Below are positions 3,188 to 36,116 of a stretch of 64,000 nucleotides of DNA, piece by piece. Numbering within the stretch: position 1 is the first letter of the stretch; each line of letters begins with the position of its first letter. Below the pieces are notes generated by a model. The model saw nothing but the letters and a program-made list of their open reading frames with translations. It did not search any database and had not been told where the DNA came from. The position numbers and the translations under genes were made by a program. The DNA comes from Chitinophaga lutea (GTDB lineage: Bacteria; Bacteroidota; Bacteroidia; Chitinophagales; Chitinophagaceae). The stretch lies in NCBI RefSeq assembly GCF_003813775.1, contig NZ_RPDH01000001.1:1612001-1676000 (forward strand), given 5' to 3'.

Positions 3188-3225
3188 TCTACTGGTTTAC
3201 TCCACTTTCCTAAAATATCAAAAAC

Positions 3226-5226
3226 ATGCAAACCGGCGAAGATATCACCGCGCTCCGCAAGATCATCGACTTTGTAAGATTTGGCAGTGCAATCGTGTTG
3301 TTGATCCATTTCTATATCCAATGCCATCCGTTGCTACTCAGCTGGCAGCTCACCCATCCATTGGCCGACCGCCTGTTCAGCAATCTTTCCCGCGATCTTC
3401 CATTTTTCGATACTGCCACTGGTGAAAAATCCATTGCATTGCTTCTGCTACTGATCACCCTGGCTGCAGCAAAAGGCAGAAAAGACGAAAACCTGAAAGC
3501 ACGGCCGCTGGTTGGCTTTCTCCTGTTTGGCATTTGCGCGTTCTACCTATCCACATTATTGCTAAAGATGGCACCGCAGGATCATCTATATATAATATAT
3601 ATGGCGGTTACTGCTTGCGGTTACCTGACTATTTTAGAGACGGGCACCAAATTCAGCCGTTTACTCCACCTCAAGCACAAAGACGACATTTTCAATACCC
3701 TGAATGAATCTTTCCCCCAGGAAGAAACCCGGCTCGAAAACAAATACTCCTTCAATTTCGCTGCACAATACCGGTACCGCGGCCAGCTGCGCAAATCCCA
3801 TATTTCGGTCATTTCGCCCTTTCGTGCGCTAACGGTAATGGGCACACCCGGTTCCGGTAAAACATTCTACGTTTTCCGGGAAATCCTACAACAAGCAGCA
3901 GCCAAAGGGTACACGCTATTCGTGTTCGACTATAAATACCCTGACTTAACTAAAATTATCTTTCATCATGCCAAACGTAACCTCGATAAGTACGCGCATC
4001 CGTTAAAGTTCTACGTAATCAACTTCGACGACCTAAGCCGCTCTCACCGTGCCAACCCCATCCAGCCGCAAACATTTTCCGATATGACCGACGCCGCCGA
4101 AAGCAGCCGCACCCTGATGTTGTCGCTCAACAGAGACTGGATCAAGAAAACCGGGGACTTTTGGGCCGAAAGTAGCATTACGTTTTTTACGGCATTGCTA
4201 TGGTATCTGAAAAAATATGACGGCGGCAGGTTCTGCACCATTCCCCATGCAATAGAGCTGGCGCAAATTGATTACAAAAAACTATTTAAAGTTCTCATTG
4301 AAGAATCAGAAATACAAACCCTCATCAATGTTTTTATCTCTGCTTGGGCACGCGGCGCAAACGAACAATTAGAGGGACAAATTGGTTCGACAAAAATTGC
4401 GCTGGCACGGTTGGCATCCCCATCCATCTACTGGGTGTTGACCGGCAACGATTTCACGTTGGATATCAATAATCCCACCGCCCCGAAGATCATTTGCGCA
4501 GGCAGCAACCCCATGCGCCAACAGGTCTACGGCCCAGTACTCTCACTATTTGTGGAGCGAATGTTGAAAATGATTAATAAACCAGGGCAGTTACATTCGG
4601 CGCTGGTTCTCGATGAATTTGCCAGCCTCACTGTCAACAACATCGACCAACATATTGCCACCGCCCGCGGGCGGCTGTGTGCAACTTGTATCGGACTGCA
4701 GGATCTCTCCCAACTACGGCGCGACTATGGAAAAGAGCAGGCAGATGTAATAGTCAATACATGCGGCAATATCATTAGCGGCCAGGTATTAGGCGATACG
4801 GCCAAACTCATCAGCGACCGCATCGGAAAAATCAATCAGGAAAAAGAATCAACCAGCATTAGCAGTTCGGACACATCAGTCAGCAAATCCACCCAGTTAG
4901 AAGTCGCCATCCAACCGGCGAAAATCGCCAATTTGTCCAGTGGCGAGTTCGTCGGAGCAGTCGCCGACACCCCGCAGCAAAAAATCGCCCAAAAGGCATT
5001 TCACTGCGAACTGCTGGTAGACTTCGATGCGGTTGCAAATGAAGAAAAACAATATGAAGACTTTCCCGTCATCCGAAACATCACAGAGGATGAAGTCATG
5101 AAAAACTTCAACCAGGTCAAATATGACATACAGGATTTAATAAATAACGAAATGAAACGTATTGAAAGCGAAAACCCAACACCTGAGCCACCGCCAACAG
5201 AAGAAAAAAAACCTGTCAGCTTGTAA
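3226..5226 (+). CDS. mobC: Type IV coupling protein (VirD4/TraG family, MobC of Bacteroides elements)
   Basis: A 666-residue coupling ATPase that should link the relaxosome to the tra-encoded channel at the inner membrane. The N-terminal ~140 residues contain several membrane segments (for example AIVLLIHFYIQCHPLLL, LLLLLITLAAAKG and LVGFLLFGICAFYLSTLLL). A Walker A site (GTPGSGKTF) lies near residue 207 and a Walker B site (ALVLDEFASL) near residue 460. The region after residue 480 carries the ARGRLCATCIGLQDLSQL segment typical of the TraG/TraD motor. The C-terminus is Pro/Glu-rich. It sits directly after the relaxase and is probably in the same transcript. Confidence 0.88.
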   Translation: MQTGEDITALRKIIDFVRFGSAIVLLIHFYIQCHPLLLSWQLTHPLADRLFSNLSRDLPFFDTATGEKSIALLLLLITLAAAKGRKDENLKARPLVGFLLFGICAFYLSTLLLKMAPQDHLYIIYMAVTACGYLTILETGTKFSRLLHLKHKDDIFNTLNESFPQEETRLENKYSFNFAAQYRYRGQLRKSHISVISPFRALTVMGTPGSGKTFYVFREILQQAAAKGYTLFVFDYKYPDLTKIIFHHAKRNLDKYAHPLKFYVINFDDLSRSHRANPIQPQTFSDMTDAAESSRTLMLSLNRDWIKKTGDFWAESSITFFTALLWYLKKYDGGRFCTIPHAIELAQIDYKKLFKVLIEESEIQTLINVFISAWARGANEQLEGQIGSTKIALARLASPSIYWVLTGNDFTLDINNPTAPKIICAGSNPMRQQVYGPVLSLFVERMLKMINKPGQLHSALVLDEFASLTVNNIDQHIATARGRLCATCIGLQDLSQLRRDYGKEQADVIVNTCGNIISGQVLGDTAKLISDRIGKINQEKESTSISSSDTSVSKSTQLEVAIQPAKIANLSSGEFVGAVADTPQQKIAQKAFHCELLVDFDAVANEEKQYEDFPVIRNITEDEVMKNFNQVKYDIQDLINNEMKRIESENPTPEPPPTEEKKPVSL

Positions 5227-8700: not shown

Positions 8701-9306
8701 ATGGCACCGAATGACGTAATAACGCGATTCCATCGAGGCGATAAATCCGCCTTCGAGGAAATCCACCACAAATTCTTCCCCTTAACGTATGGCATAGCCA
8801 AATCCTACGTTGGGCCTGAACAGGCAAAAGATGCTGTACAAACAGCCTTTATTAGTCTTTGGGAAAACAGGGAAGGCTTAAAGACAGTGGATCATATCAA
8901 ATTCTGGCTCATTACCACCATCCGGAATATCTGTATTTCCATCCTAAGAGCGGAAACAAGGTTGAGTATAGCGAGAAAAAAGCTGCTTGATGCCAACAAC
9001 GAAGAAGCAAACGCTCATATATATCATATTGAAATTCAATCGGAATTGTTGCAGAAAATAGAAGCCGCTGTCACCAGATTACCTGCCAGATACCAAAAAA
9101 TATTTGACCTCGCATATAAAAGGCAATGGTCAGATGACCAAATCGCCGATATTCTCAATATCAGCAAAAAGTCTGTTACGGAGGGAAAATCCCGCCTACA
9201 TCATGAAGTAAGACAACAGCTGCTCAACAACGGCGAATTATCATTAGGAATGATGCTATTAGGAATGGATCAATTGATGACCATAATTTCCCAAAACCAG
9301 GTCTAA
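8701..9306 (+). CDS. ECF sigma factor, FecI-like (sigma-70 family)
   Basis: A 201-residue extracytoplasmic-function sigma factor. Region 2 is visible at about residues 8-80 (FHRGDKSAFEEIHHKFFPLTYGIAKSY, then DAVQTAFISLWENREG). Region 4 is at about residues 125-170 (RLPARYQKIFDLAYKRQWSDDQIADILNISKKSVTEGKSRL), a helix-turn-helix binding the -35 region. In Bacteroidota such sigma factors are held by a FecR-type anti-sigma and released when a SusC-type receptor with an STN domain binds its substrate. All three partners follow here on the same strand, so this gene very likely controls the SusCD pair and perhaps the convergent peptide operon. Confidence 0.9.
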   Translation: MAPNDVITRFHRGDKSAFEEIHHKFFPLTYGIAKSYVGPEQAKDAVQTAFISLWENREGLKTVDHIKFWLITTIRNICISILRAETRLSIARKKLLDANNEEANAHIYHIEIQSELLQKIEAAVTRLPARYQKIFDLAYKRQWSDDQIADILNISKKSVTEGKSRLHHEVRQQLLNNGELSLGMMLLGMDQLMTIISQNQV

Positions 9307-9429
9307 ACTGGCCTCAAAAAAAATCCTTAAAAATTTCCCATTTTTTTCGGCAAGAATTTGACACCCTGCGCGTATTAACAGTAATTCCCACTGCCAAGCC
9401 AGGGGATCTCCAGTGAAACATACGCACAG

Positions 9430-10638
9430 ATGTCTGATAACAAATTGATAATCAACATTCTCATTGAATCGCTGAACGCCCATTATACAGGCGTTCCGCT
9501 CGATCCGGTTAAAAAGCAGGTCGTCGATGAGTGGTTACAGGCCGACCGCTCTAATAGGGACTTCTACAATAATCTCCTCACTGCGAAGGGATTCAGTGCC
9601 GCGGTGGAAGAACTTGCTCTTGCCAAAAACGATAGCAAGCAGGCACTCCTGCAGCATCTCTATCCTGCACATCACCGCAAAAACACGTTCAATAAATCTT
9701 TCAAGATAATTTCAATCGCCGCCAGTCTAACCATCCTCATCGGGCTGGGTATCATTGCCGTTTACAAGAACCGCTTCACCGATGAAAAACCAGTACCCGG
9801 CACGCAGGCCGTGTCCATCCCGCCTATTCATCCCAAAGGGTCTGCAACCCTTGCTCTTGCCAACGGGCGGGTGATTCCTTTGTCTCAGCCAGGGACTGTC
9901 ATACCACTGCAGGGATCAACCCAGGTCACACAGCCCGCTGCCGGGGTACTGGCTTACTCACCCGATCCGGGCCAACCAATGCCCGAAACACCATTATATA
10001 ATACGGTAACTACTCCACGGGGAGGCTTTTACAAAGTCATCCTGCCGGACCAGTCCGTAGCATATCTGAACGCCGCGTCCAAACTCCGTTTTCCAACTAC
10101 GTATTCCGCTGATATACGTGACGTAGAAATCAGCGGCGAAGTCTTTTTCGAAGTTACCAAATCACAAAAACCATTTGTCGTAACTACTGCTAACAGCAAT
10201 AAACCCGCGAAAATTACCGTATTAGGCACCAAATTTAACATCACAGCCTACCCCGATGAACAAGCCATCACCACTACCCTCGTAGAAGGAGCTGTAAAAG
10301 TTGAAACGGAAGGCACTAACAGCAAAAAATTATCCCCCGGTCAGCAGTCAATCATTAGACATGATGAAAATGGTATTGAAGTAAACACCGCAGCGGACAT
10401 AGAAGCCATCACCAGCTGGACAACAGGTACCTACGTTTTCAGAGAAAACATAAAGAGTGTTTTAACCAAAATTTCCCGCTGGTACAATGTTGAGGTAGAA
10501 TTTAAAGGCAGACTTACCAACGACGAATTTTTCGGCAGGATCAACCGCAATACCGAACTGTCAGAAGTAATAACGCTTCTCCGCGCAGGAGGTGCAAACA
10601 TAGAGTATAGCAAAGGAAAAATAACTGTATTTCCTTAA
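9430..10638 (+). CDS. FecR-type anti-sigma factor
   Basis: A 402-residue inner-membrane anti-sigma protein. The first ~85 residues are cytosolic (sigma-binding), a single membrane helix follows at about residues 95-112 (IISIAASLTILIGLGIIAVY), and the rest is periplasmic. The FecR core is recognisable from NTVTTPRGGFYKVILPDQS through LNAASKLRFPT and ISGEVFFEV to LVEGAVKVE. The C-terminus (ITSWTTGTYVFRENIKSVLTKISRWYNVEVEF) matches the DUF4974 domain usual in Bacteroidota FecR, which contacts the receptor STN domain. It is placed between the sigma gene and SusC, the standard cell-surface signalling order. Confidence 0.9.
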   Translation: MSDNKLIINILIESLNAHYTGVPLDPVKKQVVDEWLQADRSNRDFYNNLLTAKGFSAAVEELALAKNDSKQALLQHLYPAHHRKNTFNKSFKIISIAASLTILIGLGIIAVYKNRFTDEKPVPGTQAVSIPPIHPKGSATLALANGRVIPLSQPGTVIPLQGSTQVTQPAAGVLAYSPDPGQPMPETPLYNTVTTPRGGFYKVILPDQSVAYLNAASKLRFPTTYSADIRDVEISGEVFFEVTKSQKPFVVTTANSNKPAKITVLGTKFNITAYPDEQAITTTLVEGAVKVETEGTNSKKLSPGQQSIIRHDENGIEVNTAADIEAITSWTTGTYVFRENIKSVLTKISRWYNVEVEFKGRLTNDEFFGRINRNTELSEVITLLRAGGANIEYSKGKITVFP

Positions 10639-11001
10639 CAATTAACACCACTATCCAAAGTATCAGATTTAGATGTTGATAAGGCCCGTTGTGTCTACAA
10701 CGGCCATGTGACTGTAATAACATGAGGAAGTGAAAATCTTCCTCTTTCCAAAAGCAAAATCATTGGACATGCAACCGAAAGGTGATGCCATGCAATAATA
10801 AATCCAATATCGCCGCTTCCACCGGCATATTGAAAAGCAAACAGGGAACTCTGATGAGGAATTAGTAGCAAATAATACTTTCCAGCAACATTAACCTTTA
10901 TTGTTGCCTTATTCCTTGTTTAAATAATGGGTAGAATACTTCCGGCATTGTCCGAATGTATATCCCTGCGAGAAAGTTTCTAAAACTCAAACAAGTCATA
11001 T
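10639..11001. other. FecR-SusC intergenic region with one hairpin
   Basis: This 363-base gap probably carries a separate, sigma-dependent promoter for susCD. A hairpin at 10683-10705 (stem about 9 bp with one bulged C, loop GTCT) has no T-tract, so it is not an obvious terminator. I see no gene. Confidence 0.3.
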
Positions 11002-14000
11002 ATGCAACAAAAAAAGGAACGCAGCAAACGCCTGCTATATTTGCTGGCATTGTTTTTCGCACTAACCATTGCGAAAAATTCAGCTGCTCAGACAGTATCC
11101 ATCCAATTCGAAAACGTCACGCTCGACAAAGCACTACAAGATATTTCTACCCAATCTGGCTACAACATCTTTTATAAAAAAGAGTGGATGAAAAATGCCA
11201 GAAAGGTAACGGCAAAATTCACCAATTCCGTAGTTAAAGACGCTCTAAAAACAGTGCTGGAAGGCCAACCATTTCATTTCGAAATTGTAGGTAAACAGAT
11301 TATCATTATACCTGCAAAATCGGACAACACCGAGAAAAGCGCAAAGCTGGCAAATCCTTCTTTAACGGTAATTGGAAAAATTACCAATGATAACGATGAG
11401 CCTTTACCTGCCGCAACAGTCATCAATAAGCGAACAGAAGAAGGTACGCAATCAAATGCAGCGGGACTCTATACGATACGCAACGTATTACCGGACGATA
11501 TTCTAACAGTCAGCTACCTGGGCTATCAAACGGAAGAGGTTACAAAAGGTGATCGGAATTACATAAATTTTTCACTCACCCCCGCAGCAAAAGAACTTGA
11601 CAAAGTAGTAATACAGGGTTATGGTGCAACATCCCAACGATATACGACCGGTAGTATTTCTACCGTCAACGCCGAAGAAATCGGCCGTCAGCCGGTAATG
11701 AATCCTCTGCAAACTCTGCAAGGACGTGTCACGGGTCTAAACGTGCAGGCTACCTCTGGTTATGCCAGCTCACCCGTAAAAGTGGAGCTGCGCGGGCGTA
11801 AAACAATCAACGAGCGAATGACCTCAGATCCACTATACATTATCGACGGAGTTCCACTTACTGTACTTGAGTCTGGTAGCAGTAACTATGAAACTGGTTC
11901 CCGCGGTGTTGCACAAAATGGCTTCATACTCGATGGTACAAATGGCCAAAGTCCATTATTCAGCCTAAACCCCTCCGATATTGAATCAATAACCGTTTTA
12001 AAAGACGCCGACGCAACCGCCATTTATGGATCAAGAGGAGCCAACGGTGTAATCCTCATTAATACAAAGCGTGGCCGACCGGGTAAATCGAAGTTCGATA
12101 TAACGATATACAACGGCATTAGCTACATATCCCGCTTCTACAATATGCTAAATACCGAGCAATACGTAGCGATGCGAAGGGAGGCTCTTCTAAATGACAA
12201 CCTTCCACTTGACGACGGGAATGCATATGATCTTACAAAATGGGACACAACGCGATACACAAACTGGCAAAAAATTATGTTTGGTAGTATCGGTCGTCAA
12301 ACTTCGATACAAACTGCCTTATCAGGTGGTGACGAGCGGACAACATTCAGAATTAGTATTGGGTATAAGCGAGAAACAAATGTAATGACTATATCAGGAA
12401 GTGACCAACGAGGCAGTCTCAATTTCAACTTTTCTCATAAAAGTAAAAATCAGAAACTAAAAATCTCACTTGTTAACTTCTACTCCTATGCTCAGTCCGA
12501 TCTGACAGCTGTTCCTGGAAACACATTGCTCGCACCAACCGCGCCTTCAATATTCAACGAGGATGGGAAATTTAATTTCTCGGAATATCGTATCTCTGGT
12601 ACATTTCCTTTTGAAAGCCTTTTACAACCCTATGTATCGAAGACACAATTTCTAAATAATAGATTGGGTATTGCATATGAGATCATACCAGGCTTAAACA
12701 TTAATATCGACGGTGGTCTATCAACCACGCGAAATACACAAAAGCGAATCGCACCAATCATCTCAAAAGACCCTTTATACAATCCAACAGGTACAGCAGT
12801 TTTCGGCAGTAATGATGGAAAAAACTGGATAATTGAACCCAAAGTTGACTTCAAAAAAATAATAGGAAAAGGACACCTGGATATTATTCTGGGAAGTTCA
12901 TTGCAAAATATTATACAAGATGGTTCGATGATCTCTGCTTCGGGTTATGCAAATGATAATTTAGTCCACTCAGCAGGCAATGCACCTACTGTAATTACAA
13001 CGGATAATAATTTAGTTTATAAGTATGCCGCAATATTCGCCAGGATAAACTGGAAATGGAAGGAAAAGTATGTTCTGAACCTTTCAGCTCGAAGAGATGG
13101 CAGTTCACGCTTTGGGACGGGCAATCAATACGGCAACTTCGGCGCAGTAGGAGGAGCATGGATAATAAGCGAAGAGTCTTGGTATAGAGGATTGGCATCA
13201 ATAGTTTCATTTGCAAAGCTACGAGCATCTTACGGGATTACGGGCAGTGATGCAATTGGAGACTATCAATACCTGACACGATGGGGCGCCCTTGCGATAA
13301 TGCCATACAATAACGTACAATCGTTTATACCACAGCAACATGCCAATCCAGATTATAAGTGGCAGCAAGATCGAAAAATGGAAATGGGTATACAGCTTGG
13401 ATTCTTACAGGAAAAACTAAATGTAGATTTCAGTCTATATGAAAATAGATGTGGAAATCAACTATTAAATTACAATCTGCCGGATGCGACAGGCTTTTCA
13501 TCGGTTGTCGCCAACCTACCAGCTTTGGTACAAAACAAAGGGATGGAAATATTAGTTGCTGGTAAATTCCTCAACAAAAAAGAGTTCAAAGCGAGTGCCT
13601 CAATTAATATCTCTATAAATAGAAACAAGCTCCTCAAATACCCTGGTATCGAAAACACTCCCTACGCATACTTTTTTTCCGTTGGCAAACCCTTAAATGT
13701 GAAAAAACTGTTACATTATACCGGTGTTGATGCAAAATCGGGAGAATATACTTTTGAAGATAAAAACAAGAACGGACAGGTAGATTACCGCGCCGAACTA
13801 AATGACAATCTGGACGATCTGTATTTCTATGACTTTACACCAAAATACTTTGGAGGGTTTGGACTCGACATTTCATTTAAGAGGATCAGCCTCACAACCT
13901 TTTTTTCCTACTATAAACAAATGGGCAAAAGCATATACTTCACTACCCAATATCCTGGTGCAATAAATGGCAATGTCCCTATTGAAGTGATGAACCGTTG

Positions 14001-14307
14001 GCAAAAGCCTGGCGACATAGCACGATTCCCCAAATTTACTACAATGCCGGTAAACGTTACCCAGTTTGCAGCTTCAACCGGAATAATGACGGACGCCTCG
14101 TTTATCCGAATGCAAAATGCTACCCTCAGCTTTGACCTACCGACTGCTTGGGCAAAACGGATAGGAACTGCTTCAGGAAAGATATTTCTGCAAGGACAAA
14201 ACTTGATTCTCATTACTGACTACAACGGCCTCGACCCCGAATCACAAGCGTTCGGTTCTCCGCCGACTCCCAAAGTTATCGTTGGCGGTATTCAAATCAA
14301 TTTCTAA
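11002..14307 (+). CDS. SusC/RagA-type TonB-dependent outer-membrane transporter with N-terminal STN signalling domain
   Basis: A 1,101-residue receptor that should import a ligand across the outer membrane together with the downstream SusD. A signal peptide ends near residue 30 (SAAQ). The STN domain follows (about 32-105, VSIQFENVTLDKALQDISTQ), then a carboxypeptidase-regulatory-like beta-sandwich (about 120-195, GKITNDNDEPLPAATV). The plug domain follows, with DPLYIIDGVPL and the conserved ESITVLKDADATAIYG and GANGVILINTK, then the beta-barrel ending in NF. The STN domain marks it as signal-transducing to the FecR/FecI pair upstream. The barrel half is visibly more AT-rich than the N-terminal half, hinting at mosaic origin. 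Confidence 0.93.
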   Translation: MQQKKERSKRLLYLLALFFALTIAKNSAAQTVSIQFENVTLDKALQDISTQSGYNIFYKKEWMKNARKVTAKFTNSVVKDALKTVLEGQPFHFEIVGKQIIIIPAKSDNTEKSAKLANPSLTVIGKITNDNDEPLPAATVINKRTEEGTQSNAAGLYTIRNVLPDDILTVSYLGYQTEEVTKGDRNYINFSLTPAAKELDKVVIQGYGATSQRYTTGSISTVNAEEIGRQPVMNPLQTLQGRVTGLNVQATSGYASSPVKVELRGRKTINERMTSDPLYIIDGVPLTVLESGSSNYETGSRGVAQNGFILDGTNGQSPLFSLNPSDIESITVLKDADATAIYGSRGANGVILINTKRGRPGKSKFDITIYNGISYISRFYNMLNTEQYVAMRREALLNDNLPLDDGNAYDLTKWDTTRYTNWQKIMFGSIGRQTSIQTALSGGDERTTFRISIGYKRETNVMTISGSDQRGSLNFNFSHKSKNQKLKISLVNFYSYAQSDLTAVPGNTLLAPTAPSIFNEDGKFNFSEYRISGTFPFESLLQPYVSKTQFLNNRLGIAYEIIPGLNINIDGGLSTTRNTQKRIAPIISKDPLYNPTGTAVFGSNDGKNWIIEPKVDFKKIIGKGHLDIILGSSLQNIIQDGSMISASGYANDNLVHSAGNAPTVITTDNNLVYKYAAIFARINWKWKEKYVLNLSARRDGSSRFGTGNQYGNFGAVGGAWIISEESWYRGLASIVSFAKLRASYGITGSDAIGDYQYLTRWGALAIMPYNNVQSFIPQQHANPDYKWQQDRKMEMGIQLGFLQEKLNVDFSLYENRCGNQLLNYNLPDATGFSSVVANLPALVQNKGMEILVAGKFLNKKEFKASASINISINRNKLLKYPGIENTPYAYFFSVGKPLNVKKLLHYTGVDAKSGEYTFEDKNKNGQVDYRAELNDNLDDLYFYDFTPKYFGGFGLDISFKRISLTTFFSYYKQMGKSIYFTTQYPGAINGNVPIEVMNRWQKPGDIARFPKFTTMPVNVTQFAASTGIMTDASFIRMQNATLSFDLPTAWAKRIGTASGKIFLQGQNLILITDYNGLDPESQAFGSPPTPKVIVGGIQINF

Positions 14308-14312
14308 CTAAA

Positions 14313-15773
14313 ATGATATTTATGCAACTTCTTAATAAATATATTTGCGATCCAACACACAAATTCTTTACAAGAATTGCAATATTGTATTGTTGTGTTG
14401 CTTTATCGTGCAATAAACTTGTCGAAGCACCGCACCCTGTAAATACGATAACAACAGAACAGGCATTCATAGACAGTGCCTCAGCAGAATCGGCAATATC
14501 AGGCATCTACAGTGCAATCGGCAATTCAAACGGAAATGCCAGCTTCGCTACGGGAACAATCACAACCACCACTGGACTATACTCAGACGAACTGATTTAC
14601 TTCTATAACTCAGAAACATTCAGACAATTCTATAGTAATCGCTTGCTTGCAGATAATGACATAATCTTTATTCATCTCTGGAAATGGCCCTATCAATACA
14701 TTTACCAAATAAATAGTAGCCTGGAGGCATTAAACGCCGCAGCGCAACTATCCGTAACTCAAAAAAACAAGCTTATTTCTGAATGTAAATTCCTCAGAGC
14801 ATTCTGCTATTTCTACCTAACTAATCTATTTGGGAGCATCCCATATATCGCCACAGGAGACTGGCGGGTTTCTCAGTCGATTCCAAACATAAGTCAGTCG
14901 GAGGTATACATTCACATATTAAGGGATTTACAAGAATCTATACAGGGATTACCGGACGACTATCAGATGTATAATAATGAAAAAGTGCGTGCAACACGAT
15001 ATGCAGCCTATGCACTACTGACAAGAGTTTATTTATTTCAAAGGAAATGGACAGATGCAGTGCAAGCAGCCAATAAGATCATAAATCAAACCAATATATT
15101 TGACCTCGAAGAAAACCTAAATGATGTATTCAAAAAAAACAGTAAAGAATCAATTTTACAATGGTTCGGACATCCGAATTATGCACCACATAATGCCACT
15201 ATTGAAGGGGCAACATTTGTTCCATACAGTGAAACACAGCCTCCTTTTTATCATTTAAGCGAATCTCTATTGGGTGCATTTCAGCCCAATGATAACCGAA
15301 AAAACACTTGGACCAAATCGACTACTTATGAGGCCAAAACATATTTCTTTCCCTTCAAATACAAAGTTGGCCCAGCGGAATCAAGACCGGGCATTCCACC
15401 AACGGAATACTATACAGTATTCCGACTTGCAGAAATTTTACTGATTCGCGCAGAAGCAAACGCAAATCTTAATAATATCACGGAGAGCCGGACTGATATC
15501 AACAAAATACGCCGAAGGAGCGGCTTAGAAGAGTTATCATTTCAAACCCAAAACGATGCTGTAATAGCTGTCAGGCAAGAGAGACGTTGCGAACTATTTG
15601 CTGAATGGGGCCATCGGTGGTTTGACTTGAAAAGATCAGATAGTTTCAACGAACAAATGCAAATCATTTCCCAAGCCAAAGGAGCAACCTGGAAAACAAC
15701 CGCCGCATTATATCCTATCCCAATCGCCGAATTACGAAAAAACCCGTTCCTCAGACAAAACCCAGGGTACTAA
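14313..15773 (+). CDS. SusD/RagB-type surface lipoprotein
   Basis: A 486-residue lipoprotein starting 5 bases after susC. The signal ends in a lipobox (VALSC, Cys near residue 33); a start at 14325 would give a more usual signal length. Typical SusD elements are the N-terminal TEQAFIDSASAESAISGIYSAIG, the helical-repeat region with ISECKFLRAFCYFYLTNLFGSIPYI, and the C-terminal FRLAEILLIRAEANANL followed by INKIRRRSGL and RQERRCELFAEWGHRWFDLKRS. It forms the lid of the SusC channel and selects the ligand. The cargo is unknown; proximity to the peptide genes suggests a peptide, but this is inference. Confidence 0.93.
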   Translation: MIFMQLLNKYICDPTHKFFTRIAILYCCVALSCNKLVEAPHPVNTITTEQAFIDSASAESAISGIYSAIGNSNGNASFATGTITTTTGLYSDELIYFYNSETFRQFYSNRLLADNDIIFIHLWKWPYQYIYQINSSLEALNAAAQLSVTQKNKLISECKFLRAFCYFYLTNLFGSIPYIATGDWRVSQSIPNISQSEVYIHILRDLQESIQGLPDDYQMYNNEKVRATRYAAYALLTRVYLFQRKWTDAVQAANKIINQTNIFDLEENLNDVFKKNSKESILQWFGHPNYAPHNATIEGATFVPYSETQPPFYHLSESLLGAFQPNDNRKNTWTKSTTYEAKTYFFPFKYKVGPAESRPGIPPTEYYTVFRLAEILLIRAEANANLNNITESRTDINKIRRRSGLEELSFQTQNDAVIAVRQERRCELFAEWGHRWFDLKRSDSFNEQMQIISQAKGATWKTTAALYPIPIAELRKNPFLRQNPGY

Positions 15774-15784
15774 AAAACATAAAG

Positions 15785-15814
15785 AATGGTAGCATCAATT
15801 GCGATGCTACCATT
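15785..15814. terminator. Bidirectional terminator between susD and the peptide operon
   Basis: Perfect 12-bp stem AATGGTAGCATC (15785-15796) / GATGCTACCATT (15803-15814) with loop AATTGC. It lies between two convergent stops at 15773 and 15825 and can serve both directions. Confidence 0.8.
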
Positions 15815-15824
15815 ACTTGAACTT

Positions 15825-16088
15825 TTAAGGCTTGAAATAAACGGGCAAGCTGCAAGAAGCATCACGATACAGCAAGTGTTGTGTTCCAGCATCGGAAAGA
15901 ATCTTGGCTTGGAAGCCAGAACCAGCACTCTCAGAAAACAGAGGATTTACAATTGTGTTGATGGCGGTACAAGCAGCACCTTGTTTTACATATGCTCTCT
16001 GATCAGTAAACTTTGTTGATTCCCTTCCCGCGAAAACAGCGGCAGCAGTCAGTACGAGTGCGCCAGCAGCAATTAATACTTTTTTCAT
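15825..16088 (-). CDS. Small secreted peptide 1 of a four-member paralogous family (87 aa)
   Basis: An 87-residue peptide with a Sec-type N-terminus (MKKVLIAAGALVLTAAAVFA, likely cut after VFA). A conserved core follows: DQRAY, GAAC, an LFSES segment, QAKI, LYRDASC and a terminal LPVYFK. It aligns over its full mature length with the three peptides encoded upstream. It has only two cysteines (C40, C79). The other members have two more, and here those positions are Q36 and P87. It is the last gene of the leftward operon. I do not recognise a named family; a role as a secreted peptide or RiPP precursor is inferred from the neighbouring LanKC. Confidence 0.75.
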   Translation of the reverse strand: MKKVLIAAGALVLTAAAVFAGRESTKFTDQRAYVKQGAACTAINTIVNPLFSESAGSGFQAKILSDAGTQHLLYRDASCSLPVYFKP

Positions 16089-16237
16089 AAAATAATCATT
16101 TAAAATTAATGCTTACTCTTGTTAGGTTTTCAGCTTCCCCTATCCACACTCAATTCCGGCTGTGGATGAACCGGCTTGTGGTAGCTACAGCACAATTATG
16201 TATTAGTATTATTGACACAATCGCATTTTCAGAATGT

Positions 16238-16528
16238 CTATCTATTGGGAGCCAACCCTGAACACGTTAGATATACTGGCAAGGTACAAGTGCTATTTCT
16301 CCATAGGTTTATCATTGTACCAGTATTGTCTTTAATTTGCGCTTGCATTGACCCATTTGTAGAGAAAAGCAAAGTTGGCCCACAGGTTACTTTGATGCAC
16401 AGCCCACCACAAATAATATATGCATCAGAGTTGGTAAATTTACTCGCCTTGCTTTTACTGAAAATGAAACTTGCTCCTAAAATGAAAAGAGCCAATCCGG
16501 TTGCTATCGCCATAAATTTCTTTTTCAT
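16238..16528 (-). CDS. Small secreted peptide 2 of the paralogous family (96 aa)
   Basis: The start was set at the ATG at 16528 (MKKKFMAIATGLALFILGAS) because it gives a normal signal sequence. The longer open frame to 16663 adds non-conserved residues that overlap the peptide 3 gene. The mature region is the most diverged of the four: SDAYIICGGLC, then LLFSTNG, QAQI, LWRNSTCTLPVYLTC and a unique 7-residue tail (SGLAPNR). It has five cysteines (C40, C44, C49, C81, C89). C40, C44, C81 and C89 match the family pattern; C49 is extra. It is separated from peptides 1 and 3 by 149 and 65 bases. Confidence 0.72.
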   Translation of the reverse strand: MKKKFMAIATGLALFILGASFIFSKSKASKFTNSDAYIICGGLCIKVTCGPTLLFSTNGSMQAQIKDNTGTMINLWRNSTCTLPVYLTCSGLAPNR

Positions 16529-16593
16529 ACTCAAAACATTTTTGGTGATAAAACTGAAAAATTGACTTACCAATAAATAAAAACATTCGAAAC

Positions 16594-16866
16594 TCAACAC
16601 GCCCGTAAATACACTGGCAACGTACAACTGGCATCGCGATACAAATAATGAACTACTCCCCACTCATCTATAATCTTTGCTTGCACTCCAGAACCAGGAT
16701 TCTCAGAAAACAGTGCGTTCACAACGGTATTTAGGGCAAAACAAGCAGCTCCACACTTCATATATGCTCTCTGATCAGCTTTCAATTCCGAGTTTTTGTT
16801 ATTGGCAAAAGATCCCAATACGAAGAGGGTTAATAAAACGATTTTGGTAGCATCGAACGATTTCAT
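16594..16866 (-). CDS. Small secreted peptide 3 of the paralogous family (90 aa)
   Basis: A 90-residue peptide starting MKSFDATKIVLLTLFVLGSF, a short hydrophobic export signal. The conserved mature part follows: DQRAYMKCGAAC, ALNTVVN, LFSENPGSG, QAKI, LYRDASCTLPVY and a final Cys. Its four cysteines are C38, C42, C81 and C90. The body is closest to peptides 1 and 4. The region upstream of its start shares an ACTTAAAACC-like stretch with peptide 4, suggesting duplication of the whole unit including the leader. The product is probably exported to the periplasm or beyond; activity unknown. Confidence 0.75.
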   Translation of the reverse strand: MKSFDATKIVLLTLFVLGSFANNKNSELKADQRAYMKCGAACFALNTVVNALFSENPGSGVQAKIIDEWGVVHYLYRDASCTLPVYLRAC

Positions 16867-17015
16867 AATAAATTGGTTTTAAGTGATGCATAATGAACTC
16901 GTTTGCACACATGTTCATGAACCCAAGAATAGTCCTATCTTACTACCATTAACTTCATTCGCTATCATTATACTTTTTAGAATAATTGTTCGAAATGATT
17001 AAGTTGCATTTAGGG

Positions 17016-17283
17016 CTAACACTTGAAATACACCGGTTGAGTACAAGTATTGTTGCGATATGATAAGTGCAGAGTACCGCCGACACTTACAATTGCAGCC
17101 TGTGACCCAAAACCATTTTCTGAAAGAAGCGGGTTCAATACCGTATTAAGTGCCTTGCATACTCCTCCACAAACAACAAAAGCTCGTTGGTCAGCAACGG
17201 CCATTGGCTTTTTTTCAACCGAGAAAAAGCCTAATGTTATGATTGCCAAAATAGCAATCCTTCGTATTTTCTAAAGATTTCAT
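17016..17283 (-). pseudogene. Small secreted peptide 4 of the family, reading frame broken in the leader
   Basis: An ATG at 17283, only 11 bases after the LanKC stop, opens MKSLE, matching the MKSF start of peptide 3, but this frame stops after 22 residues at 17215. The mature peptide is intact in the next frame to 17016. Removing one A from the four-A run (complement of 17267-17270) restores an 88-residue product. It reads MKSLEIRRIAILAIITLGFF and then DQRAFVVCGGVC, PLLSENG, NTCTQPVYFKC, with C38, C42, C80 and C88. The gene is therefore a natural frameshift, a sequencing error, or initiates internally (the TTG at 17249). The perfectly preserved mature part argues against long decay. Confidence 0.6.
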
Positions 17284-17294
17284 GTTGATCAGGT

Positions 17295-19973
17295 TTAAGT
17301 AAATGGAAATTTGATACCTGGACGAGCATATCGCAAAAGGAAATGAATGATTCCGCTGTTGCCAGTGAAAAATCCAGCTGAAACGTTCCTGCCATCCCCG
17401 GTAGACCAAAAGCAATAATCTTCGACCTGTTTGCGGGTATTACAGAACAAATCCGCTATCCATGCCGCCTGCTGCCGCCATCGTTCGTCTCCTAAAACAC
17501 CGTGGGCCTCCAAATACAATTCTCCGATTCCAGCCAGCCCATTATATTGTGAAAAATTCGTATGCACAATACATCCCGGAAGTGTTTCCAACAGTTCGGT
17601 TACGGCTCTATGGTATTCTGGTCGTTGATCGTTTTGGTATGCCTTCAACAGCACCCGGCAAAACTCCAACAGCCTGTTGCCTTCGCTCGATGCAGGCTCT
17701 AACACCGCGGTATATCCCTTTCTACTAAATAGCTGTCTGTACTGATCGGCCTGTTTGAGAATCGACGGCAACAGCCGGTCAGCGATACGCGACAAATTAG
17801 GAACATGACAACAGCCCGCGCGGTGTAATAGGTACCATATTATTCCAGTGTCCCCACTATCCCATCGCATATCAGCTACTGGCTTACCCGCTGACGAAAC
17901 CTCCATAATCCAATGGCCATTTTGCTGCAATGACTGGCATAGTATTTCGTCATAGCTTTTTAGCAACACTTCCTCATACTCTTGTAGCAGTGCATCCTCT
18001 CGCTTCTCCCGCAGAAAGTCCGTGCATTGCAATAACGACAAACCCATGCCAGCACACCCATTGGCGATATTCAAACCCGCATACCGGTCGGAAAAACACT
18101 TTGCCATCGCCTCAACCCCCTCCCGTTTCTTCAGTAATCCCGATTTTATACCGCTGATGACGGTTAGAGCCACCCCTGCTAACCCTCCGTACAATCCGGG
18201 TGCAACCCTGTCCGGGATCTCCAGCATATTCTGCTGAATAAATCGCCATCCTGATTCGTACGCCGGTTCGCAGTCTTTCACTGCATAACCCGCTTCAGCC
18301 GCTCTGCTGATCACATACATGACCCCGCCGATTCCCACCAGCCCGCCATAGGCAGCGTAGGTCGCCTGTGCAGGACCAGAAGGACCAGTAACCCCTTCTT
18401 CTTTCACCATCCACAGGTTATTCATCATAGGGGTAGGCGGGCGAACCAGGCCACGAAGAGCAGACGCCAGGACTTCATTTATTTGCCCAGCACCGGCAGA
18501 TAGGCCATTACGATACGCTACAGCTTTACTCTTCTCATAATTCTGTAGGAGCTGTCGAATCCCCCCGATAGTGGGTCGTTTTTCTGGTTGCTCTTGCAGG
18601 CAATCTCCAATCAGGTCTGCCAATAGGGTCGAACTGGTAAAAAATAGCAACCTGCTTTTCAATTCAGCCGCGGGCATCGGGCAAAGAAATCCCGGAAGCA
18701 ACCCGGTGAAAACCGATAACATCGTAGCCCCAACGGCATATATATCCTCCTGTACAGTGGGGCGGTCATAACGAAGCTGTTCTGCCGACATGAACCCTGC
18801 CGTCCCCAACCCGTAAGGAGGATCAGGGGTCGCCGCTTTTAATGAATATGCCATTTCACAATCAATGAGCCATAAGCGGCCCTTCTTGTCCACCATAAAA
18901 TTGAAAGGCGTAATATCCCGGTGTACGAAACCGGCGCGATGAATACTTTCCACAAATTCTACCATCTGCAAAAGGTAACCTACTATTTTACGTTGTATTG
19001 CAGCATCGAGCGACGACCAGCTGGCCGACTGCGGGTTGAGTGCATTGATTTCCGCCTGCAATGTCCTGCCCCTGACAAATTCCATTGATAAATACGATGA
19101 GCCATTCCACTCAAAGAACTCATATACTTGCGGCATACGGACAATCCCTTTCAACGATTCATACACCTGCTGTTGCCAAAGTAATCTATCCTTTATATCC
19201 CGCCCGTGATCGTCAGACCACGCATAGGCACTACCTTGCTTTAAAACACAAGTTAGAAACCTGAATAACCCTTTTATCCGGATAGCTTTCAATACAACCC
19301 CTTTCGGTTGGAATTGTAATGCCAGTAAAGGCTTGTATCGCCCAGCTATCAATTTATATATAGGGGCTGATGAAAATTCCCGGATAGTGCCAAACGGCCA
19401 ACTTACACCGTGGGGCAACCGAAAAGGAACTTCTTCAATATCTTTAATCAAATTCCCCGCTGGATCATATATGTAGGTCTCGTACGTGCCACCCGCATTG
19501 GTCGCCCGTACTCCTGCAATCGCACCATAACGAGCATATACACAACCACCGAGAAATGCCGCCGTGGGCACGTCCGGCCCCTTAAACGCCTTAGACAAAG
19601 CCACCAGGGCTGAAGCCACGCTAACGGCCTGTGCATCATTTTCGGGATATACGATTATCACCTTTCCAACCTGAACCATGCCAGCATGGCCGTCTAACAC
19701 CAATCTTGCGGCTTCAATATTTTGGACTACCCGAAACCCAACACCATGATCTATCAGCATAGGCAAAACCGTTTCAAGAGCGGCCCATAGCTGGGAGCGA
19801 ACCACCGACACATACAGTACCCATCCTTGCACCAGATCAACCTGCCCCACCTGGTAATAATAATCCCAGTTCGTAAAGGCAATCCCGCGTTTGGCGAGTA
19901 AATTACCATAGTCAACTATTTGGTTATCGGGCACCAATGTTGTCGAAACACCCTGGCTGAATACTTGATCCAT
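17295..19973 (-). CDS. Class III lanthionine synthetase LanKC-like protein (lyase-like, kinase and cyclase domains)
   Basis: An 892-residue enzyme with the class III order. The N-terminal domain (about 1-230) carries LanKC-type features, including GWVLYVSVVR and VIIVYPENDAQAV. A protein-kinase-like domain (about 235-500) has EFVRGRTL, the catalytic loop VHRDITPFNF (H351-D353, N358), a DFG equivalent IDCEMA (D371) and GTAGFMSAEQL. The C-terminal LanC-like toroid (about 530-892) has repeats such as YAAYGGLVGIGG, LYGGLAGVA, NGCAGMGLS, YNGLAGIGE and FTGNSGIIH. The Cys/Cys-His zinc ligands of class I, II and IV cyclases are absent, as in class III. Such enzymes phosphorylate and eliminate Ser/Thr, then add Cys. 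It follows the thioredoxin-like gene by 3 bases and precedes peptide 4 by 11. Confidence 0.85.
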   Translation of the reverse strand: MDQVFSQGVSTTLVPDNQIVDYGNLLAKRGIAFTNWDYYYQVGQVDLVQGWVLYVSVVRSQLWAALETVLPMLIDHGVGFRVVQNIEAARLVLDGHAGMVQVGKVIIVYPENDAQAVSVASALVALSKAFKGPDVPTAAFLGGCVYARYGAIAGVRATNAGGTYETYIYDPAGNLIKDIEEVPFRLPHGVSWPFGTIREFSSAPIYKLIAGRYKPLLALQFQPKGVVLKAIRIKGLFRFLTCVLKQGSAYAWSDDHGRDIKDRLLWQQQVYESLKGIVRMPQVYEFFEWNGSSYLSMEFVRGRTLQAEINALNPQSASWSSLDAAIQRKIVGYLLQMVEFVESIHRAGFVHRDITPFNFMVDKKGRLWLIDCEMAYSLKAATPDPPYGLGTAGFMSAEQLRYDRPTVQEDIYAVGATMLSVFTGLLPGFLCPMPAAELKSRLLFFTSSTLLADLIGDCLQEQPEKRPTIGGIRQLLQNYEKSKAVAYRNGLSAGAGQINEVLASALRGLVRPPTPMMNNLWMVKEEGVTGPSGPAQATYAAYGGLVGIGGVMYVISRAAEAGYAVKDCEPAYESGWRFIQQNMLEIPDRVAPGLYGGLAGVALTVISGIKSGLLKKREGVEAMAKCFSDRYAGLNIANGCAGMGLSLLQCTDFLREKREDALLQEYEEVLLKSYDEILCQSLQQNGHWIMEVSSAGKPVADMRWDSGDTGIIWYLLHRAGCCHVPNLSRIADRLLPSILKQADQYRQLFSRKGYTAVLEPASSEGNRLLEFCRVLLKAYQNDQRPEYHRAVTELLETLPGCIVHTNFSQYNGLAGIGELYLEAHGVLGDERWRQQAAWIADLFCNTRKQVEDYCFWSTGDGRNVSAGFFTGNSGIIHFLLRYARPGIKFPFT

Positions 19974-19976
19974 GCG

Positions 19977-20462
19977 TTACAATTTTATTTCTTGCAGGAT
20001 ATTGCTATAAGTGGCACTACCCAAAAACACTTGGCGCAACGCCTTATTCTTCCCGTACACCGCTGTCACCGGCACGGAACTAACGTCGAAAAGTTTTGGA
20101 AATTCGAACTTTGTGTCTTGCCCCACTTTAATATTGGCATACGTATTTAACTGATGATGCTTTACAAACCCCCTAATCTGCTCAACGGACACCAGACTTA
20201 GGAACACAAATTGTACATGCCTTAAAGAATCCATGTTATTTATGATGCTGCGGATTTCCGCATCGCAGTTCGGACACTCAGGATCAAACCATAGCAATAC
20301 TACTGGCTGTTGTTCCGTAAGACTATCAGTTAAAAAGGTGGATTTACCATCCAAAGCAGTCAGCCGTATGGAGGGGAGCTTTTCGATAGGAGACACTTTC
20401 GGTGTGCTACAACCGAATAATATAATGGACAAAACAATCGTGACAATAATAAGAATACGCAT
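19977..20462 (-). CDS. Thioredoxin-like (TlpA/AhpC-TSA type) lipoprotein
   Basis: The start at 20462 gives MRILIIVTIVLSIILFGC, a textbook lipoprotein signal with the lipobox Cys at residue 17. An upstream ATG at 20549 would add 29 polar residues before the signal and is less likely. The mature protein has the thioredoxin fold order: VVLLWFDPECPNCDAEI with a CPNC redox site, VQFVFLSLVS, and the cis-Pro loop SVPVTAVYG. It would sit in the periplasm and reduce or exchange disulfides, which fits the Cys-pair peptides encoded downstream. It is the first gene of the leftward operon with LanKC and the four peptides. Confidence 0.85.
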   Translation of the reverse strand: MRILIIVTIVLSIILFGCSTPKVSPIEKLPSIRLTALDGKSTFLTDSLTEQQPVVLLWFDPECPNCDAEIRSIINNMDSLRHVQFVFLSLVSVEQIRGFVKHHQLNTYANIKVGQDTKFEFPKLFDVSSVPVTAVYGKNKALRQVFLGSATYSNILQEIKL

Positions 20463-21017
20463 GAGCAAGGTATTTAGACGACGCGGTTTGCGGCTACCAA
20501 GACCACCTTTCCTAATGTCATTGCTGAAAAGGGAAAAGTTATCCGCCATCAGGGAAGATGATCACGGAGCCACAAACACTAATCAGCGCCGAACTATTAA
20601 ACTTTAATGTAGAATGTTAACCTTTTTCGAAAATTCCGTGATTAATAGGGTAACACAGTCACCAACACATGGTCGCGCGTGTGTGGTCTGTAGAGAATGT
20701 CGATCAGAGAAAAAATGAAATTTGCAGATGGGAAAAAATAGTGATACAAATATAGCCTACCGTTAAGCCCATACCAAAAAATAGTTACCGTAATCTGAAC
20801 TTTTAAGGGTTTTTCTGTAGCGATTTGCTCACCAACCATGTAATACACCGAATTTTCAAGTCAGAACACGGTTTATGATAACCGTTACGCTCAATTTTAA
20901 TTTTTGGACTTAACAATTTTTCTTTGCTTTGCCTACCTAACCCCCAACCAGACAGTACCCGTACCTGCCGCCCTGTATAATCCGTTCCCTTTCAAACCTT
21001 CATCCAAATCTTTGTCA
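20463..21017. other. Divergent promoter region between the peptide operon and the regulator block
   Basis: About 550 bases, including a possible N-terminal extension of the thioredoxin-like gene (to 20549). The rest is AT-rich and must contain the leftward promoter of the lipoprotein-LanKC-peptide operon and a rightward promoter for the 198-aa gene. I could not pick a -33/-7 pair with confidence. No hairpin or gene is clear. Confidence 0.3.
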
Positions 21018-25860: not shown

Positions 25861-25938
25861 TAGGAAAGTTTTCCGGAAAGACAGGAAAACTTACGCCTAT
25901 CATTAACCGCGAATTTGGTGGCATCAAAAACAGATGCC

Positions 25939-26796
25939 ATGTCCACCACCTTCGCGCAACTGCTGGCCCAGACCACCGCTAAACTTCGCCCTGTCGTCCC
26001 CGGCCAGGACACCGCCTCCCAACTTTCGGCCCTCCATTACAATATCGCCCTCGTCAGTGACGCACTGCTGGCGTTACGCCATTCTTTTGTCCAAACCAGT
26101 CCCACACCCGCCGACGAAATCCATTTCTTCCGCGAGGTAAAGCCCTCCCTTTCGGTTCACCTGGTCTACTACACCGACATTCTGCGCATCGTTCACAACC
26201 TGCCGATTGCCGACCGGGAGCGCGCCACCGCCTACCTGCAAGCACAAACCCACGCCCAACAGCAGTTTATTGAGCGACACCTGTTCTATTTCCAATATTT
26301 TAACAGCAACCAGCGGCACCTGGACGACAAACTGTTCATCCGGGGAGCCAGCCCCAAACCTGATCTGCTCTTTGCCATCGACACCGACGCGCAGTTTACG
26401 ACTGGGTACGATTACCTGAAAGCCGCACTGGATGCCTCCGGGCGTGTTTTACAATTCCTGCAGGATCTGACCCATTGGCTGCTGCATCCGCCACCGCCCA
26501 ACACCACGCCTGCAGTGCCGGCCACCGCCTTAACATGGACAGGAGCAAAAAGGGGACTGATCGAGCTGACCTATGCCCTCCACGAAGCCGCCGCATTTAA
26601 TAACGGCAACGTAGACCTGAAAACCATTCAGGATGGACTGGAAGTGGCTTTTAATGTTAAACTGGGCAATGCCTCCCGCATTTTTCAGGAAATACTGGGG
26701 CGCAAAAGTGGTGATACTAATTTCTTAGAACTACTCACCGGCAAACTCCGTCAGCGAATAGAAAAAATGGAGGAAAAAAATCTGCGCAAAAGATAG
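25939..26796 (+). CDS. rteC: RteC-family excision/transfer regulator
   Basis: A 285-residue protein read from ATG 25939 (MSTTFAQLLAQTT). It carries the RteC signature order: EIHFFREVKPSLSVHLVYYTDI, QQQFIERHLFYFQYFNSN, HLDDKLFIRG, FTTGYDYLKA, LTWTGAKRGLIELTYALHEAAAFNNGNVDLKTI and a FLELLTGKLRQRIEKM tail. In CTnDOT RteC activates excision genes once induced. Here it follows a two-component pair and precedes the tra operon, so it likely links a signal to excision and transfer. Confidence 0.88.
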   Translation: MSTTFAQLLAQTTAKLRPVVPGQDTASQLSALHYNIALVSDALLALRHSFVQTSPTPADEIHFFREVKPSLSVHLVYYTDILRIVHNLPIADRERATAYLQAQTHAQQQFIERHLFYFQYFNSNQRHLDDKLFIRGASPKPDLLFAIDTDAQFTTGYDYLKAALDASGRVLQFLQDLTHWLLHPPPPNTTPAVPATALTWTGAKRGLIELTYALHEAAAFNNGNVDLKTIQDGLEVAFNVKLGNASRIFQEILGRKSGDTNFLELLTGKLRQRIEKMEEKNLRKR

Positions 26797-26911
26797 CCTG
26801 TACGGGCACGTAAAAAAAAACTTCGCACAGCGGTCGCCCACCACTCCGTAAAACCGCCTTCCCGCCATCGCACTTTTGCTTCATCAGTTCACGCTAAAAA
26901 ATTTTACTTGT

Positions 26912-27403
26912 ATGGACACCGCTTTTATAATAGCTATTTGCGTATCGGCCATCCCCGTCCTTTTTTACTCGTTCATGTACTGGCGGCAACCGGCTAAACC
27001 AATCATTATCGAATTTAGCGAAACCGCCCATCCCGCCGCGACCCACTCCCTCGTTGATATCCCGCGGGCACCGCAGGGACCCCCAAATTTTACCGACACG
27101 ACGGCGGAAGATGAAGATGGTGAAGATGTACTGGAACCCGCAGACACAACAGGGGACTACCTGTTAAAAGCAGCCGAAAATGTCGTAGAAAAAATTCAGG
27201 AGCAGATCAACCATATCGCCTCTGACCCACCCAACCCGGAAGAAGTACACTCGAAAATCCGTGCGATACTCGTTAAATACAGCATATTCCATCATACCGA
27301 TTATTACGAAGCGATCAATACCTACATCAGCGTCAGCGTAGAGCGTGATCTCGATCTGCGCCTGACCAAAGCTGAAATAGAATCGCTCTGGCAACCCATC
27401 TGA
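26912..27403 (+). CDS. Conserved tra-operon leader protein (TraD-position hypothetical, 163 aa)
   Basis: Read from ATG 26912 (MDTAFIIAICVSAIPVLFYSFMYW), a single N-terminal membrane anchor. An acidic, proline-rich linker follows (residues about 40-90), then a helical C-terminal domain (IRAILVKYSIFHHTDYYEAINTYI, then LRLTKAEIESLWQPI). Proteins of this layout commonly sit just before traE in Bacteroidota ICEs. The function is unknown. The gap to traE is 117 bases. Confidence 0.6.
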   Translation: MDTAFIIAICVSAIPVLFYSFMYWRQPAKPIIIEFSETAHPAATHSLVDIPRAPQGPPNFTDTTAEDEDGEDVLEPADTTGDYLLKAAENVVEKIQEQINHIASDPPNPEEVHSKIRAILVKYSIFHHTDYYEAINTYISVSVERDLDLRLTKAEIESLWQPI

Positions 27404-27520
27404 CAAGTGGTAGGGCTTCCATAAGCATGCGTCCGGCTGGCTGACAGCCTCCGGTATTGGCCGCCGGGCCATGCTACTTTTTCCTGTCTTCTTCTTTCAC
27501 CCGCTCCTAAAATCAAACAC

Positions 27521-27847: not shown

Positions 27848-27854
27848 TCCAGCC

Positions 27855-30646: not shown

Positions 30647-30657
30647 ATCTAACCTCC

Positions 30658-31356: not shown

Positions 31357-31386
31357 CCGATTTTCTCACCCGTTGCCGCTCTTTTT

Positions 31387-32043: not shown

Positions 32044-32054
32044 CCACCATTATC

Positions 32055-33861: not shown

Positions 33862-33880
33862 TTTTCTAAAAACACCTGTC

Positions 33881-34504: not shown

Positions 34505-34506
34505 CC

Positions 34507-36084: not shown

Positions 36085-36116
36085 CACTGCTTCATTCACC
36101 CTTTTAATTCTTTTAT

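Follow-up and report, generated by a model that had tools for sequence, protein, structure and literature searches.

A 64-kb stretch of a Chitinophaga lutea contig (hereafter the window, to the whole of which the coordinates refer) was found to carry two converging operons as cargo of a CTnDOT-like conjugative element, between its mobilisation genes and its rteC-transfer genes (Table 1; protein families were assigned with Pfam and NCBIfam models). One operon encodes a sigma factor, FecR, SusC and SusD, and the other a thioredoxin-like lipoprotein, a LanKC-like enzyme and four small peptides. The pairing of such peptides with SusCD is a conserved unit: it recurs in relatives, mostly in the absence of LanKC; MauE, thioredoxin-like genes or both often accompany it, and it has repeatedly been found immediately upstream of rteC. 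Given this recurrence elsewhere, the layout of the window exceeds chance. Our preferred reading, which we hold tentatively, is that the locus would function as an element-borne secreted-peptide module having its own SusCD/FecIR sensor-importer.

Recurrence of the peptide/SusCD pairing

In 396 genomes of the order, the peptide profile A1 recovered only the four peptides of the window and one weak match, which lies inside a 1752-aa frame of genome G327 and was taken as chance; among 5.8 billion proteins, it gave three matches, all of them the window's own. Because this profile had no convincing kin, relatives were reached via LanKC and SusD instead. The LanKC profile gave 335 confirmed stretches in genome contigs, of which the best 80 were retained. 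The first 29 (L044–L072) come from Bacteroidota LanKC relatives, the remaining 51, mainly matches to the kinase part alone and from other phyla, being set aside; in the LanKC protein search, the best 8000 candidates by common words were scored. Among the 29 loci, a SusD gene is located downstream within 10 kb on the strand facing LanKC in 21 and on the same strand in none; in L059 and L063, the sequence stops no more than about 2 kb past LanKC. Most of these loci (including L053) have small peptides behind LanKC, MauE occurs in 14, and thioredoxin-like proteins, S8 or S9 peptidases or a GT2 glycosyltransferase are found near LanKC or SusD in some. For 14 loci of one SusD lineage, namely the window and 13 of the 21 facing loci (L058, L060, L061, L065, L067, L070, L071 and L072 were omitted as members of the other subgroup, as an outlier or for a cut SusD), LanKC distances were correlated with SusD distances (r 0.65) and SusC distances (r 0.54), the permutation p being 2e-4, its floor, in each case.

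The first-pass annotation had placed LanKC at the core of the system. The peptides proved to occur mainly without it, the first of two outcomes that had been named in advance as telling against the proposal. RamC_N, the family of the LanKC N terminus, was found in only 12 of 294 family genomes. PF20130 (DUF6520), on which the literature search found no publication, occurs in 26 of 298 genomes. It is matched by one peptide of L045 (30.4 bits; cut-off 25.4), by none of the four window peptides at E 1 and by nothing in the window genome at E 0.001. Twenty DUF6520-type regions were drawn from the 30 matches listed: 18 of them (the exceptions are L160 and L163) have a SusD and a facing small signal-like open reading frame (ORF), 14 have MauE, and none has LanKC in its middle 11 kb, some of those genomes holding a LanKC elsewhere. 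Two further modules are present in the genome of the window itself; both have MauE-type genes and neither has LanKC. MauE itself was tried as a specific module marker and rejected, PF07291 being matched in 117 of 119 genomes, often in longer frames.

The SusD side was surveyed by a similarity search from the window SusD (E ≤ 1e-70, at least 63 of 195 genomes, at most 8 SusDs scored per genome). Forty regions were chosen, comprising ranks 2–18 and 20–22 after the window and 20 others spread by hand over lower ranks; ranks 1 and 19 were excluded as already known modules, rank 2 (L312) was kept despite its known LanKC, and L315 and L335 end too early, so that 38 regions were usable. The automatic detector found a facing small signal-like ORF within 8 kb in 25 of the 38 (one of which, in L337, resembles an unrelated lipoprotein) and within 5.5 kb in 23. 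By eye, 24 of the 38 are modules, 18 of these 24 with MauE, and only L312 has LanKC (1/38). Among control SusDs of the window genome, a facing ORF within 5.5 kb was detected in 3 of 33, none module-like by eye (23/38 versus 3/33; Fisher p 5.9e-6). The controls were 40 hand-picked regions of weaker PF07980 scorers, two of which overlap; 33 remained after dropping duplicates and short SusDs or flanks. The peptides and SusCD thus stay paired in both the DUF6520-type and the SusD-chosen regions; the independent conservation of SusCD, which had been named in advance as telling against the system, was not what was seen.

In a tree of 82 SusDs, 47 rows fall in one group (support 97), with subgroups of 26 rows (99) and 21 rows (97). 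This group takes in 42 of the 43 module-labelled SusDs, L058 lying outside, along with 5 of the 9 in the 'other' class. The window's genome has 109 SusD matches, and its 30 top scorers fall apart from the group. The LanKC loci outside the module label are L049, L052, L055 and L064 (SusD elsewhere), L054, L059, L063 and L069 (no SusD) and L072 (cut). An STN domain was found in 20 of the 29 SusCs scanned (the window's and 28 from sister loci). That the combination had gone undescribed was also borne out, in that the portions of the literature searched hold no description of a peptide/SusCD module; one preprint, in its accessible part, places SusC/SusD beside other clusters of ribosomally synthesized and post-translationally modified peptides (RiPPs) with signal peptides.

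Several points weigh against the proposed reading. The automatic detector sees a facing peptide in only 16 of the 29 LanKC loci, with the qualification that it misses real ones (e.g., L062 and L066) and that 4 loci have no SusD in reach. No facing small peptide was found in 13 to 14 of the 38 SusD-chosen regions, and hence this SusD lineage is not exclusively paired; L263, a SusD of the module lineage in the window's genome, also lacks one. The control SusDs are all from one genome, and the background of the tree is biased, because its 30 SusDs are the top PF07980 scorers and no random draw. The distance correlation ignores species ancestry, and the 8 facing loci it omits are mostly of the other SusD subgroup. 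STN was not seen at E 0.001 in 9 of the 29 SusCs. As to the proteins themselves, the AlphaFold model of peptide a (11 sequences; pLDDT 54, pTM 0.26) was not usable, and for this reason the disulfides discussed below are inferred. The loss of the lyase residues from the LanKC-like enzyme is read from an alignment, a K-to-R change at one site is mild, and L056, whose enzyme also lacks the three residues, has the class III core motif in 4 of 4 peptides, which speaks against a simple link between the two.

Association with a CTnDOT-like conjugative element

The window contains RteC together with CTnDOT-type tra and mob genes; the scores in the transfer block are 1.9e-52 (RteC), 3.1e-197 (P-loop_TraG), 3.8e-15 (CtnDOT_TraJ), 3.9e-42 (Transposon_TraM) and 4.4e-49 (DUF4138). 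Neither the conjugative element nor the recurrent place beside rteC figured in the first-pass annotation. Elsewhere, tra/mob genes were found in 9 of 97 fetched loci (L068, L070, L164, L167, L172, L237, L325, L328 and L329) and in none of 70 control regions. This control is weak because it covers 439 kb, as against 1537 kb, of one genome, and the RteC count is the real test.

In 40 module-bearing genomes, 51 RteC matches were found, 30 of them at ≥ 150 bits. Nine of these 30 strong matches lie within 12 kb of a listed position, as compared with 0.19 expected from genome sizes, an expectation that unlisted modules in the 40 genomes would raise; within 20 kb the count is ten (0.32 expected), the additional match being at G331:C2. 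The 52 listed positions comprise 48 modules, chosen independently of RteC, and four LanKC genes without a SusD check (G331:C2, G168:C11, G257:C1:497911 and G285:C35). None of the nine neighbours is among those four, and the window was counted by design. In all nine cases, rteC is on the SusD strand beyond the peptide operon, that is, in one order and orientation. The elements may share a common ancestry, and therefore the nine neighbours are not nine independent events; at most of the 52 positions, no RteC was detected within 20 kb.

In Mucilaginibacter pedocola (L070:6436-12490), a relaxase and a coupling protein lie directly upstream of LanKC, which makes this a second LanKC module by mobilisation genes. 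Downstream of the transfer genes of the window, a YhcG-type PDDEXK nuclease and a C-5 cytosine methylase are encoded (38188-39282 and 42820-44217), and a terpene synthase (53029-54003; Terpene_syn_C_2, 4.3e-40) stands beside a histidine kinase/response-regulator hybrid.

Gene organization of the window locus

Table 1. Features of the locus and of the surrounding element in the window
Feature	Position	Strand	Supporting data
Mobilisation block: relaxase and type IV secretion system coupling protein (YWFCY)	1919..5226	+	Relaxase 6e-24, YWFCY 3.4e-46
Extracytoplasmic function (ECF) sigma factor, FecI-like	8701..9306	+	Sigma70_r2 1.6e-10, Sigma70_r4_2 2.8e-6
FecR anti-sigma/sensor	9430..10638	+	FecR 1.5e-13, FecR_C 2.1e-11
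SusC/RagA TonB-dependent transporter, N-terminal STN	11002..14307	+	TIGR04056 635 bits; STN 2.4e-11
SusD/RagB lipoprotein, module type	14313..15773	+	SusD_RagB 1.9e-32; in tree with L044/L046/L051/L062 module SusDs
Palindrome between the converging operons	15785..15814		13-pair stem; T-rich tail on − strand
Peptide a, 87 aa, signal-like N terminus, Cys40 and Cys79	15825..16088	−	43% identity to L044 peptide
Peptide b, 96 aa, 5 Cys	16238..16528	−	
Peptide c, 90 aa, 4 Cys	16594..16866	−	
Peptide d, 4 Cys, TTG at 17249, possibly broken	17016..17249	−	
LanKC-like enzyme: RamC_N lyase-type, kinase and LanC-like domains	17295..19973	−	
Thioredoxin-like lipoprotein (CPNC)	19977..20549	−	AhpC-TSA 2.4e-8; TIGR02661 MauD 3.4e-6
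rteC and transfer block: RteC, TraG, TraJ, TraM, DUF4138	25915..36962	+	

The layout given by the first-pass annotation was reproduced in genes, strands and families, both for the rightward sigma/FecR/SusC(STN)/SusD set (8701-15773) and for the facing leftward operon of lipoprotein, LanKC and four peptides (15825-20549). SusC with its STN domain, FecR and the ECF sigma factor are adjacent on one strand, which is the arrangement of FecIR-SusCD signalling. The stop codons of SusD and peptide a are 51 bases apart, with the palindrome in the gap. This palindrome had been taken for a shared bidirectional terminator; the claim stands for the − strand, i.e., for the leftward operon, and fails for the + strand, where the terminator scan was not passed. 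The lipoprotein has a lipobox-like LFGC and the CPNC motif, and its best NCBIfam model, MauD, scores 26.7 bits, under the cut-off of 188.6. No in-frame ATG is available to peptide d: the reading frame begins at the TTG, and an ATG at 17281-17283 is out of frame. This copy is therefore broken, contains a misread base or uses an unusual start.

Small peptides

The four peptides are, as had been noted, paralogous and Cys-containing (2, 5, 4 and 4 Cys), with 14 invariant columns in their alignment. By eye, their N termini resemble Sec signals, having a short basic start and then a hydrophobic stretch; in peptide d, read from its TTG, the basic start is absent. The closest relatives, reached via LanKC, are two peptides of L044 with 43% and 41% identity to peptide a. 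Two Cys set peptides b, c and d apart from peptide a and the L044 pair, which lack both: an additional one early in the sequence and one at or close to the C terminus. Across these few sequences, such paired gain or loss of Cys would fit a disulfide better than a Ser/Thr-Cys ring. Among the nearest facing peptides, 22 of 24 contain at least two Cys.

The idea that redox genes track the Cys content of the peptides was dropped after L046, L051 and L062 were considered. These Cys-poor loci have no LanKC-side thioredoxin and no MauE, each has a DUF4369-thioredoxin family protein near SusD, and one peptide each of L046 and L051 does contain Cys. As a separate observation, seven tandem, variable peptide paralogues lie behind a single LanKC in L050 (12671-16062).

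LanKC-like enzyme

The window enzyme combines RamC_N (6e-28), Pkinase (7.4e-19) and LANC_like (6e-10) domains in one protein, the composition of a class III enzyme, and the LanKC profile A2 matches solved LanKCs (8car, 8e-74). Its scores are under the NCBIfam cut-offs for LanKC (243/575 bits) and LanL (336.7/650 bits). In a genome-mining study, LanKC and LanL were mostly from Actinobacteria and Firmicutes, and ORFs without Cys were dropped, as the accessible part of that study states (PMC7268733).

The two catalytic parts of the enzyme differ in their preservation. The kinase residues K245, D353, N358 and D371 are present and are retained in 38 of 38 covering alignment rows. The residues corresponding to His67, Lys94 and Asp152 of ThurKC are Y54, R81 and A138 in the window enzyme. 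Over the covering rows, these residues are retained in 25/34 (His67), 27/37 (Lys94) and 28/36 (Asp152); of the 34 rows covering all three sites, 20 retain the full set, and in three rows (the window, L056 and L069) every one of the residues is replaced. According to the accessible part of a report on ThurKC (PMC10604976), these are the acid/base residues of the lyase: the H67A variant comes to a halt at dehydrated and phosphorylated intermediates, with K94A the peptide stays unmodified, and D152A gives 5 dehydrations at most. Read against these variants, the replacements in the window enzyme make it best regarded as a probable kinase whose lyase is failing.

The class III core motif S/T-x2-S/T-x2-5-C was found in none of the four window peptides and in 19 of 32 peptides from other LanKC loci, which were picked by eye, and such a loose motif is also expected by chance in Ser/Thr-rich peptides. 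Three of the 32 have no Cys. The first-pass annotation had expected a lanthionine or labionin product. With neither the lyase residues nor the core motif in place, this is unlikely for the window copy, and the enzyme is likelier to be a peptide kinase than a lanthionine maker.

Three groups of loci showed further peculiarities. In the LanKC relatives of L065 (9911-12028), L067 and L072, the lyase part seems absent; L065 and L067 also have a small helix-turn-helix gene before LanKC, signal-like peptides on the SusD strand and a DUF4221-family protein nearby. A conserved multi-pass membrane protein of about 530 aa without a Pfam match lies upstream of LanKC in L045 (7823-9436), L062 (8304-9887) and L057 (6271-9417); it is fused to an FAD amine-oxidase-like domain in some loci and stands beside GT2 in some, and by eye it looks like a GT-C glycosyltransferase. 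In L064 (8495-13120), LanKC is antisense, between FecR and a sigma gene of a SusCD operon.

Possible function and alternative explanations

In the reading that we prefer, the peptides would be exported through Sec into the periplasm and folded there by one or two disulfides, aided by the thioredoxin lipoprotein and, at sister loci, by MauE. The facing SusCD would be their cognate outer-membrane receptor or importer, and STN-FecR-sigma would report its occupancy and raise SusCD expression, forming a self- or neighbour-sensing loop. The LanKC-like enzyme of the window would most likely phosphorylate Ser/Thr of the peptides before export, with neither elimination nor ring formation proceeding efficiently.

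The alternative closest to the first-pass annotation is a class III lanthipeptide cluster, in which LanKC dehydrates and cyclises the peptides, which are then exported and re-imported or sensed by SusCD. The full LanKC domain order and the kinship to solved LanKCs agree with it, as do the lyase residues and core motifs kept at many other loci; the window enzyme and its four peptides lack exactly these residues and motifs, the enzyme scores under both curated cut-offs, and Cys-free peptides occur beside other LanKCs, so that we regard it as improbable here. The peptides may instead be bacteriocin-like competition factors spread by the element, SusCD serving as the uptake route of the producer or as the door into the target. 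Tandem variable paralogues such as the seven of L050 and the carriage on conjugative elements would suit this, but no immunity gene was recognised, though no specific search for one was made, and a convergent sigma-FecR-SusCD set more directly suits sensing or uptake; we consider such a role unlikely.

Pairing with particular SusD lineages would also be expected if the small proteins were periplasmic or outer-membrane accessory subunits of that SusCD lineage (a lid, an adaptor or a displayed ligand) and not diffusible signals. A structural subunit would not usually be encoded in a separate converging operon, vary strongly in sequence or have several paralogues, and this explanation appears quite doubtful. 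Finally, SusD genes are so common in the window genome that two unrelated cargo operons might have converged by accident; the recurrence in the LanKC loci and the SusD-chosen regions, together with the RteC count, refutes mere neighbourhood at the level of gene order and leaves it very improbable indeed.

If the secreted-peptide module with its own sensor-importer is the right reading, some SusCDs of the Chitinophagaceae and relatives would partner a self-encoded peptide instead of importing nutrients, and orphan SusCDs would gain a concrete candidate ligand. The kinase part of a lanthipeptide synthetase could persist while the lyase decays, and modules beside the transfer regulator of conjugative elements could influence gene spread. 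The position beside rteC leads to a bolder idea, that the peptide informs transfer: as a self-recognition device, optionally phosphorylated or dehydrated by LanKC and sensed via SusCD/FecIR, it would tell the element via rteC-tra whether neighbours already carry it. We offer this as a speculation with rather little chance of being correct; if true, it would be a Gram-negative equivalent of the control of transfer by peptides in Gram-positive elements, and relatives of LanKC would have become simple peptide kinases.

Comparison with known systems

The locus resembles LanKC systems (ThurKC, CurKC) in having an enzyme with a lyase-type N-terminal domain, a Ser/Thr kinase and a LanC-like domain, in an operon with small Ser/Thr- and Cys-bearing peptides. 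It differs from them in the Sec-like leaders of the peptides, in the sub-threshold enzyme that has lost its lyase residues and in the lack of an ABC exporter gene among the genes of the operon. Chryseobasin-type/DAG-RiPP clusters of Bacteroidota likewise have RiPP precursors with SPI or SPII signal peptides, but carry MNIO in place of LanKC and a C-terminal recognition motif, and the accessible part of their report does not describe a converging module, a MauE/thioredoxin set or a link to conjugative elements (PMC12636315). SusCD/RagAB systems with FecI-FecR share SusC with STN, SusD, FecR and the ECF sigma factor, whereas the four-gene operon of the window has no degradative gene and faces a dedicated peptide operon.

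MauD and MauE are a redox pair in methylamine dehydrogenase maturation. The lipoprotein has MauD as its best NCBIfam model and MauE is present at many sister loci, but the window locus itself has no MauE gene. The element shares RteC, TraG, TraJ, TraM, DUF4138, the relaxase and the coupling protein with CTnDOT-type elements and, unlike them, carries the peptide/SusCD module upstream of rteC. In ICEBs1, the PhrI/RapI peptide system controls the transfer of the element. By analogy, a secreted peptide borne by the present element could signal that neighbours already bear it, although the sensor proposed here would be the outer-membrane SusCD/FecIR.

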